This document shows, piece by piece, positions 3,194 to 10,039 of a stretch of 64,000 nucleotides of DNA. The stretch comes from Pseudomonadota bacterium. GTDB lineage: Bacteria; Pseudomonadota; Gammaproteobacteria; Burkholderiales; Ferrovaceae. Every line of letters begins with the position of its first letter. Within the stretch, counting starts at the first letter, position 1. A program made the translations under genes and the position numbers. Below the pieces are notes generated by a model that saw only the letters and a list, made by a program, of their open reading frames with translations, was not told the origin of the DNA and did not search any database. Location of the stretch: positions 1-64,000 of the forward strand of contig JAKABO010000008.1 in NCBI GenBank assembly GCA_021796835.1. The letters are read 5' to 3'.

Positions 3194-3342
3194 CACGGAA
3201 GATATTGCGCGGCAGCGCGAGAGGGTGTGTTAAATGAGAAGCGTGCTTCAGGAATCCCAATGGCGTGGTCAGCGGTTATTGAGGGACTTCCAAACACTGT
3301 TTGGCCAATAATGCTTTTTGTCTTTGCTGGCTTGGACGATAG
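3194..3342 (+). other. Probable truncated group II intron body
   Basis: This sequence leads directly into the intron domain V on the same strand. It is too short for a domain I and carries no reverse-transcriptase frame. It contains a small GCGC-GGCA-GCGC hairpin near 3208. I interpret it as what is left of the intron interior after a deletion, though part could be flanking DNA. Confidence 0.35.
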
Positions 3343-3416
3343 GAGCTGTATGAATCGAGAGGTTCACGTACAGTTCTGGGAGAGCGTCGGGGTGTGATTC
3401 CCCGGCGCCACTCGAC
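3343..3416 (+). ncRNA. Group II intron 3' end: domains V and VI, orphan
   Basis: Positions 3343-3376 are exactly 34 nt and fold as a domain V. They start with the catalytic GAGC, have a GAGA tetraloop at 3357-3360, and end ACGTACAGTTC with the usual two-nt bulge. A domain VI hairpin follows at once: a nine-pair stem of 3384-3392 with 3400-3408 and a 7-nt loop. The end CACTCGAC is like that of bacterial group IIC introns, so the 3' splice junction is about 3416/3417. No intron-encoded protein is visible anywhere nearby, so this is a truncated relic that cannot splice by itself. Group IIC introns often sit behind hairpins or in attC sites; neither is obvious here. Confidence 0.7.
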
Positions 3417-3689
3417 CTACTTTACCCCAAACTGTTTGTTGTTTAAAACTTTAAAAACCAAATAATCTACCCATAGCGGGGGCGTGTACTTCAGCCTAAA
3501 TTGTTCTGGCAGCATAATCGGCAGAATTCCTCTTGTGCCGGGTTTTGGCACGCGCTGCCAGGTCATCGGTGATCCCGTCCAAACACCTCCTTTGCCGCCT
3601 TTACCCCCTTTAATCCGGCCAGTTGCGAAAACTGTCATGCAAACATCGGCAGGATTCCGCTTTTGCCGGTTTTTAGGACGCGCCAACAT
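3417..3689 (-). CDS. Small ORF containing a KGGKGGKGGV repeat, unknown function
   Basis: This 90-codon frame begins 15 nt downstream of the TubC-like gene on the same strand, so it could be the last gene of that operon. Residues about 18-37 (MTVFATGR, then a Gly/Lys-rich run) are encoded by one copy of the 64-bp repeat. The rest (TWQRVPKPGTRGILP and on) matches no family I know. The stop codon lies right at the 3' boundary of the intron remnant, so the original C-terminus may have been lost. There is no good ribosome binding site for either possible ATG (3689 or 3638). It may not be expressed. Confidence 0.3.
   Translation of the reverse strand: MLARPKNRQKRNPADVCMTVFATGRIKGGKGGKGGVWTGSPMTWQRVPKPGTRGILPIMLPEQFRLKYTPPLWVDYLVFKVLNNKQFGVK
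3581..3644 (-). repeat. KGGKGGV repeat element, copy A (64 bp)
   Basis: Read on the minus strand this begins GTTTGCATGACAG and ends GGCAAAGGAGGTGTTT. It is 62/64 identical, in opposite orientation, to copy B at 4353-4416; the two flank the TubC-like gene. It contains an ATG followed in frame by codons for TGRIKGGKGGKGGV and a perfect AAAGGAGGTG Shine-Dalgarno sequence. Confidence 0.8.
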
Positions 3690-3704
3690 GTAGCAGTAGC
3701 ATTT

Positions 3705-4331
3705 TCAGGAATCGGCCCATGCACAGCAAAGTTCCAGAATCTTTAGTTGACACTCCACCAATGTCATCGTCCCCCTCGGTACCAGTATGGTGAATGTCCC
3801 AACGCCGCGCCGCACTACGCAAATTTCAACGTCAGGACTATCATCGCTCGGTAACGCAACCTCAATAGCGTAATTCAACGCAGGCTTCTCGTCCAACTGC
3901 GCCCAAAGGCGATCACGCCACGGCTCAATGTTGATATCTGGCGGACTGAATGCCTTGACTGGTTTCGGTTCGCATGGTGTTGCTATGGTGCTATCAGGTC
4001 GTCCGTCTAGAACTTCGCTCATCGTAGCCGGTGGGGAACAGTAAACCTCGAATGATTTCCGTCCGGCTTCTGTCACAAACCAACAGCGCGCTACTGTTGC
4101 CCCCTTTTCACCCTGGAGCGTAGAATTCGTGAGAGTCGGTTCAAACTTGGCGCGCTTGCGCTTGCGCTCGCGCTGTAGTTCACACAGGATGCCTGGCTTG
4201 TTGTCGCGGATTGTCGGCAGCCATTTATCCACTGCCGACTGTGCGCCCGTTGCCGTGATAGTGCCCCCAGCGGAAAGCTCGAGAATCACACCATCCGCAG
4301 TTGCCCGTTCAATGATTTCCACGGGAGTCAT
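3705..4331 (-). CDS. TubC N-terminal docking-domain-like protein
   Basis: The first 50 or so residues of this 208-aa protein (MTPVEIIERATADGVILEL, then G-TITATG and VDKWLP-IRDNKPGIL) resemble the TubC docking domain known from megasynthases. The same fold is found as a stand-alone N-terminal domain in proteins of proteobacterial mobile elements. A basic linker follows (RERKRKRAKF, about 54-63), then about 140 residues I do not recognise. The gene starts inside the stop codon of the primase gene (ATGA overlap), so the two are translationally coupled, and no peptide-synthetase gene is near. I infer a protein-protein interaction role linked to element replication or regulation rather than natural-product synthesis. 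Confidence 0.6.
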   Translation of the reverse strand: MTPVEIIERATADGVILELSAGGTITATGAQSAVDKWLPTIRDNKPGILCELQRERKRKRAKFEPTLTNSTLQGEKGATVARCWFVTEAGRKSFEVYCSPPATMSEVLDGRPDSTIATPCEPKPVKAFSPPDINIEPWRDRLWAQLDEKPALNYAIEVALPSDDSPDVEICVVRRGVGTFTILVPRGTMTLVECQLKILELCCAWADS

Positions 4332-7075
4332 ATCACCAGACTCACATTCGCGGTTTGCATGACAGTATTCGCAACCGGCCGGATTAAAGGGGGTAAAGGC
4401 GGCAAAGGAGGTGTTTTTGCTGGAACCACACGCCAGGCGGTCCGGCCGTCTGCAGTCGATTGCTCGAACACCAAACCGCCGACGTTCCGCCCTGCATTCT
4501 TTTTCAGCAGCCAGCCCAACTTCGAGCGATTGATCCTGCCTCTTTCTTCAACAGGAAATTCGCACATTGCATCGCGCAGGTCATGTGCCCCGAATTCAGC
4601 TCTATCAACTGCTTTGCGTACTGTCACTGATGCCGAGCCGAATGTAGCCATCCATTCAGTCATCAGCCCCGCGAGTGAAACCCCGTCTGGGTCGTGCTTG
4701 ACCTGTTCCAGCAGCGCCGTTGCCGGATCGGGATGCCCGAGCCACATTAACGGGTGCCTGCAATAGTCTGACCAAGCACCGCCAAAGGTGACAATGCTTT
4801 CAACGTCAGCACGCGGTGAACCCGCCTTGCGCCAAGCCAGTATAATGGTCAGTACCGCGGCGACATAACGCCCGCGTTGCTTGCGCACCTTATCGACCGG
4901 AAAGCCTTTGTAAGTCATTGTGGCCGGTGTCGCACATCGCGGGTCAATGTGTATCGTCAACACACGCCTCAGCAGATCGCGCACCGGCCCAACATTATTT
5001 CCTGAACCTAGAAACAGGGTGCGTGTGCTGACCGTCGCCGTTTTGCTCACCCCCAGAATCCGGTCGGTAATATGCTCGGCTGTCAGCATTCGCTTGATGG
5101 TGCCGTGCGGTATCCAGTCGGTGTCCATGTCATCAAATTCGATGACTGCGGGACTCGTCAGCAGCAAGGACAGTATCACCTTGGTAGCTTCCTCCGAGGT
5201 TGTTGGATAGCTCACCTTGGCATTACCGGCAGGCCCGGCGAATGCGCCGATCAACTCGCACAGATAAGTTTTTCCGCTGCCGAAAACCGGCGCTTTCGCG
5301 TGAAAGCCTGGCGCATACGGCAGAGACGGGCGCACCACGGCGGTAAAGATCGCCGATAGTGCTGCGGCTTTATCGGTGTTTGCGACGAAGTGAAACTCGG
5401 TAAGCAACTCCTCAAGCAGGGTCAGTGCCGCTCGTGCGGCCTCAGGCGTCGGATCAGGTATGACAAATTGCCGAGCATCGAAAACGCCAAAACGCTGCGA
5501 TGTTTTGTCATACCCTGCTTGCGTAATCAGCTCTCCGTCTGACTCACGAAAATACGGCTGCCGCACTACACCTGCCAGTGGCGGCAAATGCTGGAAAACC
5601 TGCAAGTCGTAAAGAATTGCGGTGTGCCGCGTGGGTGGATCACAGCGCAACCAGTCTTCTGAGCGTGCGTCGTACTTCTCCCATGTCGCTGCGATAGAAA
5701 GTTCGCGTGTCAACGCCGGTGCGCTGGTTGGAACAACCGAAGGATCTCCACTTGTCGGGTCGGTCGATACCGAAACAATCAAACCGCCCGACTGATAATG
5801 CCGACCACGATTGGCCAATTCTTTTTCAGCCGCAGCCACAACGCGGTGCAGGTCACCGGCAACCACACGGATTACCGGCTTGTGTCGCGCCTCGGCGTTG
5901 CGCACGCCCAGAAATTCCAACAACTGCCGGATGTGAAACTTCTCACGATGCGAGTGCTGGCAACAGAATCCACCTAGGGGATACAGTTCGTCCGGTTCAA
6001 AATACGCCGCACCGCTGTCCAGCCCATCGGTATGTTCTTGCGACAAGGGGCAACTGACATCGTGCTTGCCTGAACCCAGAGGCGTTTTGTAGAGGCCGCG
6101 CGACTTGAGCGCACTCACGACCGGGTTTTCCGCAGCCCTCGGCGTCAACACATCGTCGGCATCATTCCCTATGCTGCGCGGATTATCCGCAGCAGACTTA
6201 GTTTCTTTCTTCGGACGCCCAGCCGGTGCCAACTCAAGTTGCAAACCATCTACAATTTCTTCTGGCGTGTAACGTTTATCAGGTCGCCATTCGACTAGGC
6301 GGCAGCGAAATGGCACACCGGCTTGGTCAACATGTTTTGGTTTACCATTGATTGCAACTGGGAGACGCGACCAGCGGCTTAATGGCCCGGTAGCGCCAGG
6401 ATCACAATACCCAGCATCAATTACGGCGTTGAGCAACCGCACGGCCACATCGCTATCAGCAATCGGTTCGGCGAGAATGATGCCGCCTTGATGGTTTCCG
6501 GGGCTAGTCTCGATCAGCCATGACAACTCAAAATCGGCCAGTCGCTCTAATGGCACTTTGGTGCCAAGGTCATCAAGCATCAAGAAATGGTACGCGGCAA
6601 ACTGCGATTTACGCGCCTTGAACGAACCATCTTCGCCTAGGTAGAAACTCGAACAGCCGAGGAAGTTGTTCTGCGCGGCGGAAAGATTTTCGCTTGATGA
6701 ATCGGCACGGATCGCTATCCATCCGCCCACGCCAGGATCACCAGTTTTGGAACAAACAGCAGCAAATGCGCCCTCGGGCAACTGCGGAAATACCGCAGCG
6801 ACAAATTCAGCATTCGTCATCATAAAAACACCTCCTTTGCCGCCTTTACCGGCTTCATTCGGCTCGGTATCGGAAACTGTCAGAGTAGTAGCGGTCAAGG
6901 CAATTCCCTCAGGCCGCAGCTCTGCTGGCGTTTCTGCTGATGCGCTTAGACTGTTTACAAAGTCGTTTACGCTTTCAGCTGAGTGGGCTCCCAATACCGC
7001 CTCTAGAATCGATTGTTTTGCCGGTGTTGGGATTGAAAGTTCTTGCAGTTCGCTGTGAGTCAAATCCAGTCTCAT
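4328..7075 (-). CDS. RepB-type primase / P-loop helicase of a mobile element
   Basis: The 915-residue frame contains a RepB-like archaeo-eukaryotic primase region at roughly 90-260 (WLIETSPGN-QG, LSRWSRLPVAINGKPKH). A P-loop ATPase follows in the last third, with Walker A GSGKTYL and Walker B VIEFDDMD, then a sensor-like GSGNNVGP. Such fusions prime and unwind DNA for replication of plasmids, phages and integrative elements. The annotated ATG overlaps the upstream regulator stop (ATGA). However, a perfect AAAGGAGGTG sits five nt before the codons for MMTNAEFV at about residue 84 (near 6824), so a shorter product starting there is likely too. The C-terminal tail (TPPLPPLPPLIRPVAN) is encoded by repeat copy B. 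Function is inferred from motifs only. Confidence 0.65.
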   Translation of the reverse strand: MRLDLTHSELQELSIPTPAKQSILEAVLGAHSAESVNDFVNSLSASAETPAELRPEGIALTATTLTVSDTEPNEAGKGGKGGVFMMTNAEFVAAVFPQLPEGAFAAVCSKTGDPGVGGWIAIRADSSSENLSAAQNNFLGCSSFYLGEDGSFKARKSQFAAYHFLMLDDLGTKVPLERLADFELSWLIETSPGNHQGGIILAEPIADSDVAVRLLNAVIDAGYCDPGATGPLSRWSRLPVAINGKPKHVDQAGVPFRCRLVEWRPDKRYTPEEIVDGLQLELAPAGRPKKETKSAADNPRSIGNDADDVLTPRAAENPVVSALKSRGLYKTPLGSGKHDVSCPLSQEHTDGLDSGAAYFEPDELYPLGGFCCQHSHREKFHIRQLLEFLGVRNAEARHKPVIRVVAGDLHRVVAAAEKELANRGRHYQSGGLIVSVSTDPTSGDPSVVPTSAPALTRELSIAATWEKYDARSEDWLRCDPPTRHTAILYDLQVFQHLPPLAGVVRQPYFRESDGELITQAGYDKTSQRFGVFDARQFVIPDPTPEAARAALTLLEELLTEFHFVANTDKAAALSAIFTAVVRPSLPYAPGFHAKAPVFGSGKTYLCELIGAFAGPAGNAKVSYPTTSEEATKVILSLLLTSPAVIEFDDMDTDWIPHGTIKRMLTAEHITDRILGVSKTATVSTRTLFLGSGNNVGPVRDLLRRVLTIHIDPRCATPATMTYKGFPVDKVRKQRGRYVAAVLTIILAWRKAGSPRADVESIVTFGGAWSDYCRHPLMWLGHPDPATALLEQVKHDPDGVSLAGLMTEWMATFGSASVTVRKAVDRAEFGAHDLRDAMCEFPVEERGRINRSKLGWLLKKNAGRNVGGLVFEQSTADGRTAWRVVPAKTPPLPPLPPLIRPVANTVMQTANVSLVI
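4353..4416 (+). repeat. KGGKGGV repeat element, copy B (64 bp, inverted)
   Basis: On the plus strand this runs from GTTTGCATGACAG to GGAGGTGTTT and differs from the reverse complement of copy A at only two of 64 positions. It overlaps the 3' end of the primase gene, where the opposite strand supplies the Pro/Leu-rich tail of that protein. A plus-strand frame starting at its ATG (4359) is antisense to the primase gene and probably not real. Confidence 0.8.
6826..6880 (-). repeat. KGGKGGV repeat element, copy C (diverged), with internal ribosome binding site
   Basis: Read on the minus strand this aligns without gaps to 55 nt of copy A with 44 identities; the last 23 nt are identical. The matching end holds AAAGGAGGTG, and the next codons after TTTTT are ATG ATG, near 6824. 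That makes this copy a very strong translation start inside the primase frame. It encodes GKGGKGGVF in the longer product. Confidence 0.75.
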
Positions 7076-7362
7076 GATGGGCTCCCCTTTCTTGGGCGGC
7101 CCCTACCTCTGACTCCTACATCCTTGGCAATTTTTGGCTCAGCAGGTTGTGGGTCAACTTCGCAATCGGTAACCCTAGCGATGTCTGCCATGAAAACTCT
7201 TTTGTGCTGACCCACTAACCTGATGGGTACCGGGAACCGATTTCGTGAGATTAAGTTCGATGCGGTCTTGCTGAGTTTTTGCCTAGAACCTGACCAGCCC
7301 AACAAAATCAGGGCATCTACTGGTGTTACTGCGAGTGGGGTAAGTGATTTTTCCTGGGGCAT
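7072..7362 (-). CDS. AlpA-like helix-turn-helix regulator of the island
   Basis: The 96-aa product (start MPQEKSLTPL) has the layout of AlpA/phage-type DNA-binding proteins: a helix-turn-helix near residues 20-40, a SRNRFPVPIRL segment typical of the wing, and a basic RGRGRPRKG tail resembling an AT-hook. I chose the ATG at 7362 because GAGG lies nine nt before it; an upstream TTG at 7380 lacks such a site. It overlaps the primase start by four nt and is the first gene of the operon. AlpA-like proteins commonly control excision or early genes of integrated elements; that role here is inference. Confidence 0.6.
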   Translation of the reverse strand: MPQEKSLTPLAVTPVDALILLGWSGSRQKLSKTASNLISRNRFPVPIRLVGQHKRVFMADIARVTDCEVDPQPAEPKIAKDVGVRGRGRPRKGSPS

Positions 7363-7996
7363 ATTTTCTGACCTCGTCAAAACTGATGACCAAGGATTGC
7401 ATATTTTTTTTAGAAAATCAAGGAAATTATTTGTTCAACTATATGATTATTAAGGAAAATAAAACTCAAGACAAACCTCCCCCAACCCCCTCAATTCCTG
7501 GATGTGGCCTGATTCCAGGAAGGGCGCAAATTGCGAATTCGCGCGGTCGCTCCGAAGTGACCTTTGCAAGTCAGAAGAGCCGACTACGGAGATGTTGTTT
7601 TGCACGGATGTGTAATCAGCCGAATTTGGGTGTTTTTGGCAGTTTCGTGAAAATATTTTTTATGCAAGACAGATCGGAGACCGGTTGAAGGTGCGATATC
7701 TATCCTATTAGGGCAAAATGGGGACTTGGGGAGTTGAAAATGAACGATGGGACTACTGCGTCGGGCAGGGCAGGGCTGGTGGGGGCGATTATTCCCGTGA
7801 TGCAATATGGTCGTGTCCATCTCGAAAGTTTTGACACCCAGGGTCATCTTCAAACAGTTGCGCCCTGAAAATCCTAGGAATTTGCATCTATTTCCAAGAA
7901 GATGCTGACATTAGATCAAATGCTGACTTGACTTACATGCGTCAATTCTGGCGATGGAGTAAAATTGTGCCTCGTGAGTCATATGGGAGGAACAGA
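7363..7996. other. 634-nt divergent intergenic region, AT-rich at its left end
   Basis: This lies between the leftward replication operon and the rightward toxin module, so it should hold both promoters. The part around 7380-7460 is AT-rich. A C-rich tract at 7476-7492 puts two runs of five G on the minus strand. An 8-bp inverted repeat TTCCTGGA (7495-7502) and TCCAGGAA (7514-7521) could be a regulator site. No gene is supported; the possible frames have no recognisable domain. Confidence 0.4.
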
Positions 7997-8230
7997 ATGT
8001 CGGCAGTCGCTCATACCCAAATAGAATCCTTTCTTTCTTCTCCCGGTTTTGAAGCTGCTCTTACGAATGATGACGGCTTGGCAGCCCGGCAACATCTTTC
8101 TGCCGGTCGGCCCATCTACTTTGGTGATCCGCGATACCCTGAAGGATTGGTAAAAAAATACCCTGATGGTCGTAAGCAACTTGTTGCAGTTAATAGTGCC
8201 GGGGAAGTGTCTATCATTCGGGACATCTGA
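7997..8230 (+). CDS. Small putative antitoxin paired with a zeta-like toxin
   Basis: GGGAGG at 7985-7990 lies six nt before the ATG at 7997, which decides this start over an in-frame ATG at 7928. The 77-aa product has an acidic, Ala-rich first half (AHTQIESFLSSPGFEAALTN) and a second half with YPDGRKQLVAVNSAGEV. It shows no helix-turn-helix and no similarity to the epsilon antitoxin that I can see. Its stop overlaps the toxin ATG by one nt (TGATG), the usual arrangement of an antitoxin gene before its toxin. Function is inferred from this position. Confidence 0.6.
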   Translation: MSAVAHTQIESFLSSPGFEAALTNDDGLAARQHLSAGRPIYFGDPRYPEGLVKKYPDGRKQLVAVNSAGEVSIIRDI

Positions 8231-8808
8231 TGCCACAGCTCTGGATCGTTGCCGGCCCGAATGGAGCTGGCAAGACCACCGTTGCGGATCGCTGGCTCGC
8301 TCCTCGGATACCGGTCATTTCCCCGGATACCATTGCTATGTTGCATGGAAACAGCCCAATTCAAGCGGGTAAAGCAGCCATAATTGAACAAGAGCGATTA
8401 CTGGCTATGGGTGCCAGTTTCGGTTTGGATACCACATTCTCAGGAAATCGTGAACTCACCCTGATGAAGCGAGCTATCGGAGTCGGTTACAAGATAAATT
8501 TTGTTTTTGTCTGTGTCGAAAGTCTTGCGTTGTGCCAAGTTCGCATCCTTGAACGGGTTGACAGCGGTGGGCATGCCGTGCCCGCAGAAGATGTGTCACG
8601 GCGTTACAGCAGAAGTCTGCATAACCTCGCTTCAGCTTTTGACTTGTCAGAACGGGTATTCATCTTGGACAACACGGGAGAAAAACGCCGCTTACTCCTA
8701 TCTGTTGAGCATGGCCGCGTGAAGCACTTTTCCAGTAACCTGCCCCAATGGGCAAAAGATGCAATACCGGATCGTTTCATTCACCCTGAGCGGAATGAAC
8801 TGATTTAA
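8230..8808 (+). CDS. Zeta-toxin-family P-loop kinase
   Basis: The 192-aa product has a Walker A motif GPNGAGKTT at residues 9-17 and a PVISPDTIA segment typical of zeta toxins. An LDTTFSGN motif near residue 65 matches the ETTLS-type substrate strand, and a conserved RILERV-SGGHAVP-EDVSRRY region supplies basic and Arg residues. Zeta toxins phosphorylate UDP-N-acetylglucosamine and block peptidoglycan synthesis; family members without epsilon partners may have other targets. The gene is translationally coupled to the small upstream gene. In an island this pair would stabilise the element or act against phage. Confidence 0.8.
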   Translation: MPQLWIVAGPNGAGKTTVADRWLAPRIPVISPDTIAMLHGNSPIQAGKAAIIEQERLLAMGASFGLDTTFSGNRELTLMKRAIGVGYKINFVFVCVESLALCQVRILERVDSGGHAVPAEDVSRRYSRSLHNLASAFDLSERVFILDNTGEKRRLLLSVEHGRVKHFSSNLPQWAKDAIPDRFIHPERNELI

Positions 8809-8989: not shown

Positions 8990-10039
8990 CTACTCCAGTT
9001 TCTTGGCCAGATCCTCTGCCCGTGGGTGGTAGTATCGAAAGACCATCTTCGAATCTTTATGACCCGTCACTTTCATCAATTCGTGCATCATAAATCTTGC
9101 CGCCAACCGCGAGGTTCCTTCGTGCCTGAGGTCATGCCAATGAAGATCGAGTAGCATAGCGTCCACGGCAATTTCCATTTTGGTTTTACCGGCAATTATC
9201 ATTTCCTTTTCGTAATCAACCCGTGCCCGTTTAATTGCGTGCCCCCATGATTGGACAAGGGCTGACTTGGTAAGCCTTAACACTTTTCCTTCAATCGAAT
9301 GGGGTAACTCTGATAATGTTTCGAGGGCACGGGGTGACAGTGGGATTGTGCGAGATGTCCCGTTTTTGGTATCTATCAAGTGAGCCGTCTTGTTTTTCAA
9401 ACTCACATTCTGCCACAGCAGGTCAAGCGATTCCCCTTGACGCATGGCCGTTTCACAAGCCAGGATGAATGCGGGTAGTATCCAAGGATTTTTGCACTGT
9501 TTAAGTGCGGCGACAATACGGACTTCTTCACCGTCAAGTAACCGACGGTCGCGGCTGTTGTCCTCTCTAGGCAAGGTGATCTTGCGAATCGGATTGTCTA
9601 CTGGGATTCCCCATTCTTTGTTTGCCAGGTTGAACAGGTGGCTGATAGGGGCTAAATCCAGCCTGATGGTTGCGGCAGATACTCCAGCCTTTTTTCTTTC
9701 ATCACGAAATTTTGCGAAGTTTCCAGGTGTAAGGGCCAATAGGGACACTTTTGCCAATTTGCTATTCTTCCATGTCAGCAAACGGTTTTTTTCCTGTATC
9801 GCACTTTTCTTGTTGGGGGTGACCTCGTCCAAGTAGCGATCTATGGCATCAGCCAAGGTGGTCTTTTCGGCTTCGCTCTGATTAGTGTAATCCCCTCTAT
9901 CTATCCTGAACTCAATGCTGCGAGCCCATTTCTCCGCAGCCTCCTTGGTCGGAAAAGTTTTTGATACCGTCTCATTCCCTTTGCGCCTGACCCTTGCCTG
10001 CCACCAGTCATTTTCTCGCTTCGTAAATGTCGCCATCAT
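8990..10039 (-). CDS. Tyrosine site-specific integrase
   Basis: The 349-aa protein shows the whole catalytic set of tyrosine recombinases: R200 (ETAMRQGE), K225 (DTKNGTSR), H302-x-x-R305 (WHDLRH), H327 (TGHKD) and the nucleophile Y336 (RYYHP). The N-terminal part has a small DNA-arm-binding domain (WWQARVRRKG) and a SAM-like core-binding domain at about 60-150. GAGGGG lies directly upstream of two consecutive ATGs. The gene is adjacent to the tRNA-Asn fragment that marks the island end, so it is the probable integrase of this island. A good promoter lies at 10082-10110. Confidence 0.92.
   Translation of the reverse strand: MMATFTKRENDWWQARVRRKGNETVSKTFPTKEAAEKWARSIEFRIDRGDYTNQSEAEKTTLADAIDRYLDEVTPNKKSAIQEKNRLLTWKNSKLAKVSLLALTPGNFAKFRDERKKAGVSAATIRLDLAPISHLFNLANKEWGIPVDNPIRKITLPREDNSRDRRLLDGEEVRIVAALKQCKNPWILPAFILACETAMRQGESLDLLWQNVSLKNKTAHLIDTKNGTSRTIPLSPRALETLSELPHSIEGKVLRLTKSALVQSWGHAIKRARVDYEKEMIIAGKTKMEIAVDAMLLDLHWHDLRHEGTSRLAARFMMHELMKVTGHKDSKMVFRYYHPRAEDLAKKLE

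Follow-up and report, generated by a model that had tools for sequence, protein, structure and literature searches.

Two inverted copies of a bipartite DNA element lie in the 5' and 3' coding ends of a primase-helicase gene in the window, the whole 64,000-nucleotide stretch analysed here, and related genes carry the same arrangement. The element is a DNA signal, and selection acts on it at the DNA level. Our best explanation, to which we assign a probability of about 0.62, is that the copies are iteron-type sites at which a PrimPol/SF3 initiator binds, split and inverted within its own gene; the element would then probably be a docking site at which the replication enzyme of a mobile element starts copying.

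Results

Three copies of the element surround and enter a primase gene

The first-pass annotation had described three copies of the element (A, B and C; Table 1), and all three are real: a profile that drew on other genomes only and excluded the window recovered exactly A (E 2.9e-13), B (5.5e-13) and C (4.1e-15), with no further match below E 0.04. The inverted orientation of A and B and their identity at 62 of 64 positions were confirmed, as were the gene positions, and copy C, claimed to align at 44/55, came close to that value with 81% identity to A over 57 nt and 81% to B over 59 nt. The window contains four occurrences of AAAGGAGGTG, where 0.10 would be expected, and three of these fall within the copies. 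Genome-wide, a scan of the 2.15-Mb genome returned A, B and C only. The claim that the element encodes KGGKGG does not hold for the primase at copy B, where the KGGKGG frame is antisense and the primase frame reads TPPLPPLPPLIRPVANTV. Since B and C are inverted, the DNA encoding the N-terminal region of the protein (TVSDTEPNEAGKGGKGGV) is almost the reverse complement of that encoding its C-terminus (TPPLPPLPPLIRPVANTV).

Table 1. Positions of the element copies and of neighbouring features in the window
Feature	Position	Strand	Basis and remarks
Left copy of 39-bp direct repeat beside copy A	3517-3555	+	33/39
Copy A	3581-3644	-	Downstream of the 3705-4331 gene; pairwise comparison and profile search
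Right copy of 39-bp direct repeat beside copy A	3645-3683	+	33/39
Downstream gene ("TubC-like" in the first-pass annotation), between B and A	3705-4331	-	ATGA overlap with primase stop
Primase-helicase, 915 aa; predicted PrimPol, D5/SF3-like AAA+ and C-terminal winged helix	4328-7075	-	RepB_primase Pfam match; AlphaFold, Foldseek
Copy B (C-arm)	4353-4416	+	In 3' coding part of primase (TPPLPPLPPLIRPVANTVM); place conserved in relatives
C-terminal winged-helix region of primase, adjoining the C-arm; candidate element-binding domain	4425-4700	-	Structure prediction; analogy with SaPI Rep, Cch2 and P4 alpha
Copy C (N-arm): box TGACAG, spacer and 9-bp units	6824-6882	-	In 5' coding part of primase (TVSDTEPNEAGKGGKGGV); place conserved in relatives, frozen wobble
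AlpA-like regulator upstream of primase	7072-7380	-	By position and sequence; ATGA overlap
Tyrosine integrase of the mobile element	8990-10039	-	Phage_integrase PF00589; PHROG integrase

The primase lies in an integrase-bearing mobile element and is preceded by the AlpA-like gene. The gene content may be of the PICI type, with integrase and primase recognised by Pfam; the AlpA-like gene has no Pfam match in the window, and its equivalent at locus L057 matches Phage_AlpA (PF05930). The gene between B and A matched neither Pfam nor PHROG. Near the integrase are a GmrSD-type restriction enzyme (PF03235/PF07510; 506-2296) and an AAA_33/zeta-toxin-like ATPase (8230-8808), both likely cargo.

Foldseek searches with the AlphaFold model of the primase returned poxvirus D5/E5, AsfvPrimPol, NrS-1 and SaPI PriRep1, and the model has the D5/PriRep-like architecture of a PrimPol fused to a D5/SF3-type helicase with a C-terminal winged helix. 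The winged helix is predicted confidently, but its fold is generic and common: a Foldseek search restricted to the C-terminal domain had no hit below E 0.001, and VIA-align gave generic winged helices only (Z at most 6.5). The primase-helicase is the likely initiator binding the element.

Copy A is a third set besides the two arms. It lies ~700 bp beyond B, oriented as the missing half of a SaPI/PICI-like 3' pair would be, and the boxes of A and B face each other; among the mapped loci only L056 has a third copy at a comparable place. The annotation had considered an inverted pair allowing inversion of the downstream gene. This switch was rejected, as most relatives with that gene lack copy A and its ATGA overlap with the primase is retained. 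The 39-bp direct repeat bracketing copy A is absent elsewhere in the genome. Just left of this region, a match to group II intron domain V/VI (3341-3416; Rfam RF00029, 51.6 bits) is probably an intron remnant.

The arms are conserved at both ends of related primase genes

Direct DNA searches were nearly empty. The exact pattern of the window's version had no match in genome_contigs or viral_contigs, queries of 60-100 bases found almost nothing among plasmids and 100 relatives, and the strict element pattern was absent from 369 genomes of the class; the element must therefore be sought via the primase. A scan with the primase alignment yielded 80 named genome loci and a few viral contigs, the loci being 45-88% identical in the best segment. 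These loci were assigned to Pseudomonadota, Acidobacteriota, Verrucomicrobiota, Nitrospirota, Thermodesulfobacteriota and others, individual assignments being unsure as most loci come from metagenome bins.

For a model-free test of the arms, the sequences before and after the primase core were compared in inverted and direct orientation and against 50 shuffles. The inverted score exceeded the direct score in 72 of 81 testable loci (mean 21.1 vs 10.6) and all 50 shuffles in 65 of the 81. The arms occupy fixed positions, from about -62 to -5 upstream of the core and from about +8 to +65 downstream of it. When mapped with the arm profile, 58 loci read exactly '+ primase -' and the window and L056 '+ primase - +', while '- primase +' alone was found at none of the mapped loci. 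Tandem units were absent from the primase core on both strands in 70 loci and rare in their 1.5-kb flanks, and no AT-rich melting region was found on average beside the arms. In the more distant relatives L012-L024 (30-37% identical; minus-strand loci scanned as they lie), the flanking inverted pair did not rise above shuffles, L012 and L024 scoring about level with their own, so that primases of this kind do not all have the feature.

Unit type follows the primase clade

The element consists of a TGACAsTTTT box and, after ~17 bp, three units of 9 bp each, in phase with the codons. In the KGG type the consensus is TGACAGTTTTctCAACCG, a variable stretch, and AAGGCGG-AAGGCGG-AAGGCGGTG at 9-bp steps; in the second (ACCG) type it is TGACAcTTTT, a variable stretch, and AAACCGAyg three times. 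The units change with the primase clade, to AAAGGCGGT or AAACCGAYR, while the box persists; more distant relatives have AAACCCACT or AAACCCCTA, and further variants occur in Legionella and IMG/VR relatives. Unit type tracks the primase tree (3 label changes vs 23-27 when shuffled), and the two ends of a gene share one type and switch together. L034, flagged as a mixed-type exception, was discarded because the flagged match was a chance one in the spacer. The change of units with clade may be simple common descent. Concerted evolution of the arms was rejected as the main cause, since the excess similarity of arms from one locus is slight in KGG loci (unit match 0.782 vs 0.777 with arms of other loci; n=40, p 0.23) and moderate in ACCG loci (0.790 vs 0.736; n=24, p 0.0002), where subclade structure may explain it. 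In L106 (8448-8540; AAACCGACT) and L066 (8480-8581; AAAGGCGGT) the C-arm has grown to about 7-8 tandem units, so unit number varies.

Selection acts on the DNA rather than on the peptide

The units are in codon phase and mostly open, as would be expected if the KGG/PPL linkers were ordinary conserved coding sequence whose similarity is driven by the protein. This reading is refuted, and we give it practically no weight. Across 32 aligned KGG loci, codon identity at the N-arm Gly positions was 0.67-1.00, compared with a core mean of 0.39 (95% quantile 0.57), and the Lys and Glu codons of the units reached 1.00, compared with 0.64 and 0.61 in the core. The C-arm persists in many loci although a stop codon precedes or interrupts it (at +9 in L103 and L106, at +15 in L080), and the N-arm of L076 is frame-broken and lies just 5' of the start codon. 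Elsewhere the element is intergenic, as head-to-head pairs flanking the gene on both sides (L063, L064, L065, L069 and L074) or as a head-to-head pair upstream of it (L060 and L072). The frozen wobble positions, the stops before the C-arm, the L076 arrangement and the intergenic copies together exclude ordinary protein conservation, and the reverse-complement relation of the N- and C-termini also argues against it. The first-pass annotation would have been refuted by an element confined to this genome, or by copies that were plain coding sequence with synonymous variation; relatives carry the element, and its synonymous sites are frozen.

The annotation's idea of a mobile translation-start cassette found no support either, as AAGGAGGT is present in just 3/40 N-arms and 5/40 C-arms. 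With a perfect Shine-Dalgarno sequence in only three of the 40 N-arms, the motif is incidental in most cases, although individual loci, L076 among them, may use the element as a ribosome-binding site. Neither the perfect ribosome-binding site nor the KGGKGG peptide is more than a by-product.

Origin-like pairs lie beside homologues on plasmids

A distant homologue of the primase is the sole recognisable Rep of the Psychrobacter plasmid pA32H2 (6,547 bp). Directly 3' of it are decamer arrays (L114:6370-6524), with three AGGTAGGGAT, 93 nt and three inverted copies. Just 3' of the gene, Azospirillum AZO_p2 and Methylobacterium pMt-1 carry inverted 9-bp units, AAACCCACT and AAACCCCTA respectively, with inward CTGTCA/TGACA boxes. 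Of the earlier suggestion of a replication or recombination site, it is the replication half that gained support, from these plasmid pairs and from the arms at both primase ends in relatives.

Discussion

In our proposal, the initiator binds the element as an iteron-type site located in its own gene. By analogy and from the predicted structure, the PrimPol-helicase probably binds the repeats via its C-terminal winged helix. The initiator would load as one oligomer per set and then unwind and prime the excised mobile element. With one set in the 5' coding end, the inverted other in the 3' coding end and the 2.4-kb gene between them, the two could cooperate by looping, as is thought for P4 ori/crr, or could act as an origin plus an autoregulatory site. 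By analogy with SaPI/PICI-type origins, the window C-arm would correspond to the gene-proximal half, the other half having its place at the 5' end of the gene.

PICI origins comprise two iteron sets 3' of pri that flank an AT-rich region (PMC6092414), and in SaPI Rep and SCC Cch2 the C-terminal domain binds the 3' iterons (PMC7581432). The pri-rep-ori module of SaPIs and Gram-negative PICIs resembles the window in having a primase-helicase initiator within an alpA/int element (PMC6092414, PMC7581432). Two inverted sets of short direct repeats at the gene are common to both, as is a C-terminal DNA-binding domain, a putative one here. In contrast to the known origins, in which both sets lie immediately 3' of the gene around the AT-rich region, the sets in the window and the 58 loci occupy opposite coding ends, 2.4 kb apart, and no AT-rich region was seen.

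P4 alpha is a primase-helicase with a C-terminal origin-binding domain, and its two distant iteron sites, ori and crr, are needed together. It is a Toprim primase with other iterons, unlike the window element, and we know of no description in which the two P4 sites form an inverted pair embedded in the alpha gene at either end. Primase-helicase, C-terminal winged helix and two distant iteron sites are nevertheless features that P4 has in common with the system described here. The winged helix of P4 alpha has been described, as has ORF904 of pRN1, which joins PrimPol, SF3 helicase and C-terminal winged helix and has an origin element directly 3' (PMC4234260). The domain order and the 3' origin element of pRN1 are alike; unlike the arms, that element is a stem-loop without iterons and is found 3' of the gene only. 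The lambda ori is a single mid-gene array that lacks an inverted counterpart at the opposite end of the gene, and O is not a primase-helicase. Its position is inside the coding region of O, an initiator gene (PMC6022878), as that of the presumed origin here would be. An origin inside an initiator gene (lambda O) and paired iteron sets (SaPI/PICI) are thus already known, and among open-access papers we found no description of the element or of split inverted embedding in both coding ends.

We consider it unlikely that the element is mainly an operator, bound by the primase, AlpA or another HTH protein to control alpA-primase transcription. Operators of iteron plasmids are often related to iterons, the N-arm occupies the 5' end of the gene, and the phage contigs L117 and L118 have single sets 5' of genes; the equal inverted copy at the 3' end in most loci, the plasmid pairs and the absence of the element upstream of alpA in most loci all speak against it. 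RNA pairing, in which Shine-Dalgarno-like units at the 5' end of the primase mRNA would pair with their 3' complements to control translation, appears very unlikely. The arms are indeed complementary within one transcript, and in the window a perfect Shine-Dalgarno sequence in the 5' arm is matched by its complement in the 3' arm. However, this perfect match is rare among N-arms, intergenic pairs occur in several of L060-L074 and on plasmids, and in KGG loci own arms are no better matched than foreign ones; the better match in ACCG loci may again reflect subclades.

It is also quite unlikely that the arms are recombination boundaries, either exchange sites for replication modules or the ends of a small primase-carrying transposon. 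DNA similarity between loci does often stop at the outer arm edge (157 of 405 alignments end at +60..+75, and 96 of 405 start at -75..-60), and the ends read TGACA...TGTCA. Downstream genes differ between loci, being a terminase small subunit, an HTH protein, HsdM or a 3705-4331-like gene, and L029, L030 and L057 form a mosaic in which L057 matches L030 over 6 kb upstream and L029 over 2 kb downstream, the change occurring close to the primase arms. Taken together, these boundaries, the mosaic and the varying downstream genes show that the replication module is shuffled near the arms; homologous exchange at conserved sites would account for this just as well as a dedicated role in recombination. 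Against the latter, a conserved site with variable neighbours yields the same boundary pattern, the arms diverge vertically with the primase, and the upstream AlpA gene and gene orientation are kept. There is no transposase between the arms and, in the window, no target-site duplication at their outer edges, so that a transposon of its own is not indicated there. At L076, a terminase small subunit gene (PF03592; 8538-9056) follows right after the C-arm, ATGA-coupled to the primase in a satellite-like order.

Only a minority of integrative elements with PrimPol-type primases have a known origin. The iteron-type reading would supply a compact, searchable putative origin signature, a box plus 3x9 bp inverted at both gene ends in loci assigned to several bacterial phyla, which explains the odd KGGKGG/PPLPPL and ETDKTD/GFIGF termini of these primases. 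More tentatively, it is possible that these loci represent a widespread class of replicons whose initiator gene lies between the halves of its own bipartite origin and consists of them in part; to fire, the initiator would have to bridge its own gene. If so, inverted iteron sets 2.4 kb apart would code for the residues at either end of the initiator, recombination could not part gene and origin, and the two would be inherited as one inseparable DNA unit. The clade-wise unit changes would then be a natural test of initiator-iteron specificity.

Single KGG-type copies also occur in three phage contigs (L117:2058-2121, L118:961-1022 and L119:590-653) in which no related primase was detectable, and another protein may therefore bind the element. 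In L118 the copy forms the leader of a small gene, which is immediately followed by a terminase-like gene. Such lone copies could be a titration site or an exchange site between phage and satellite.
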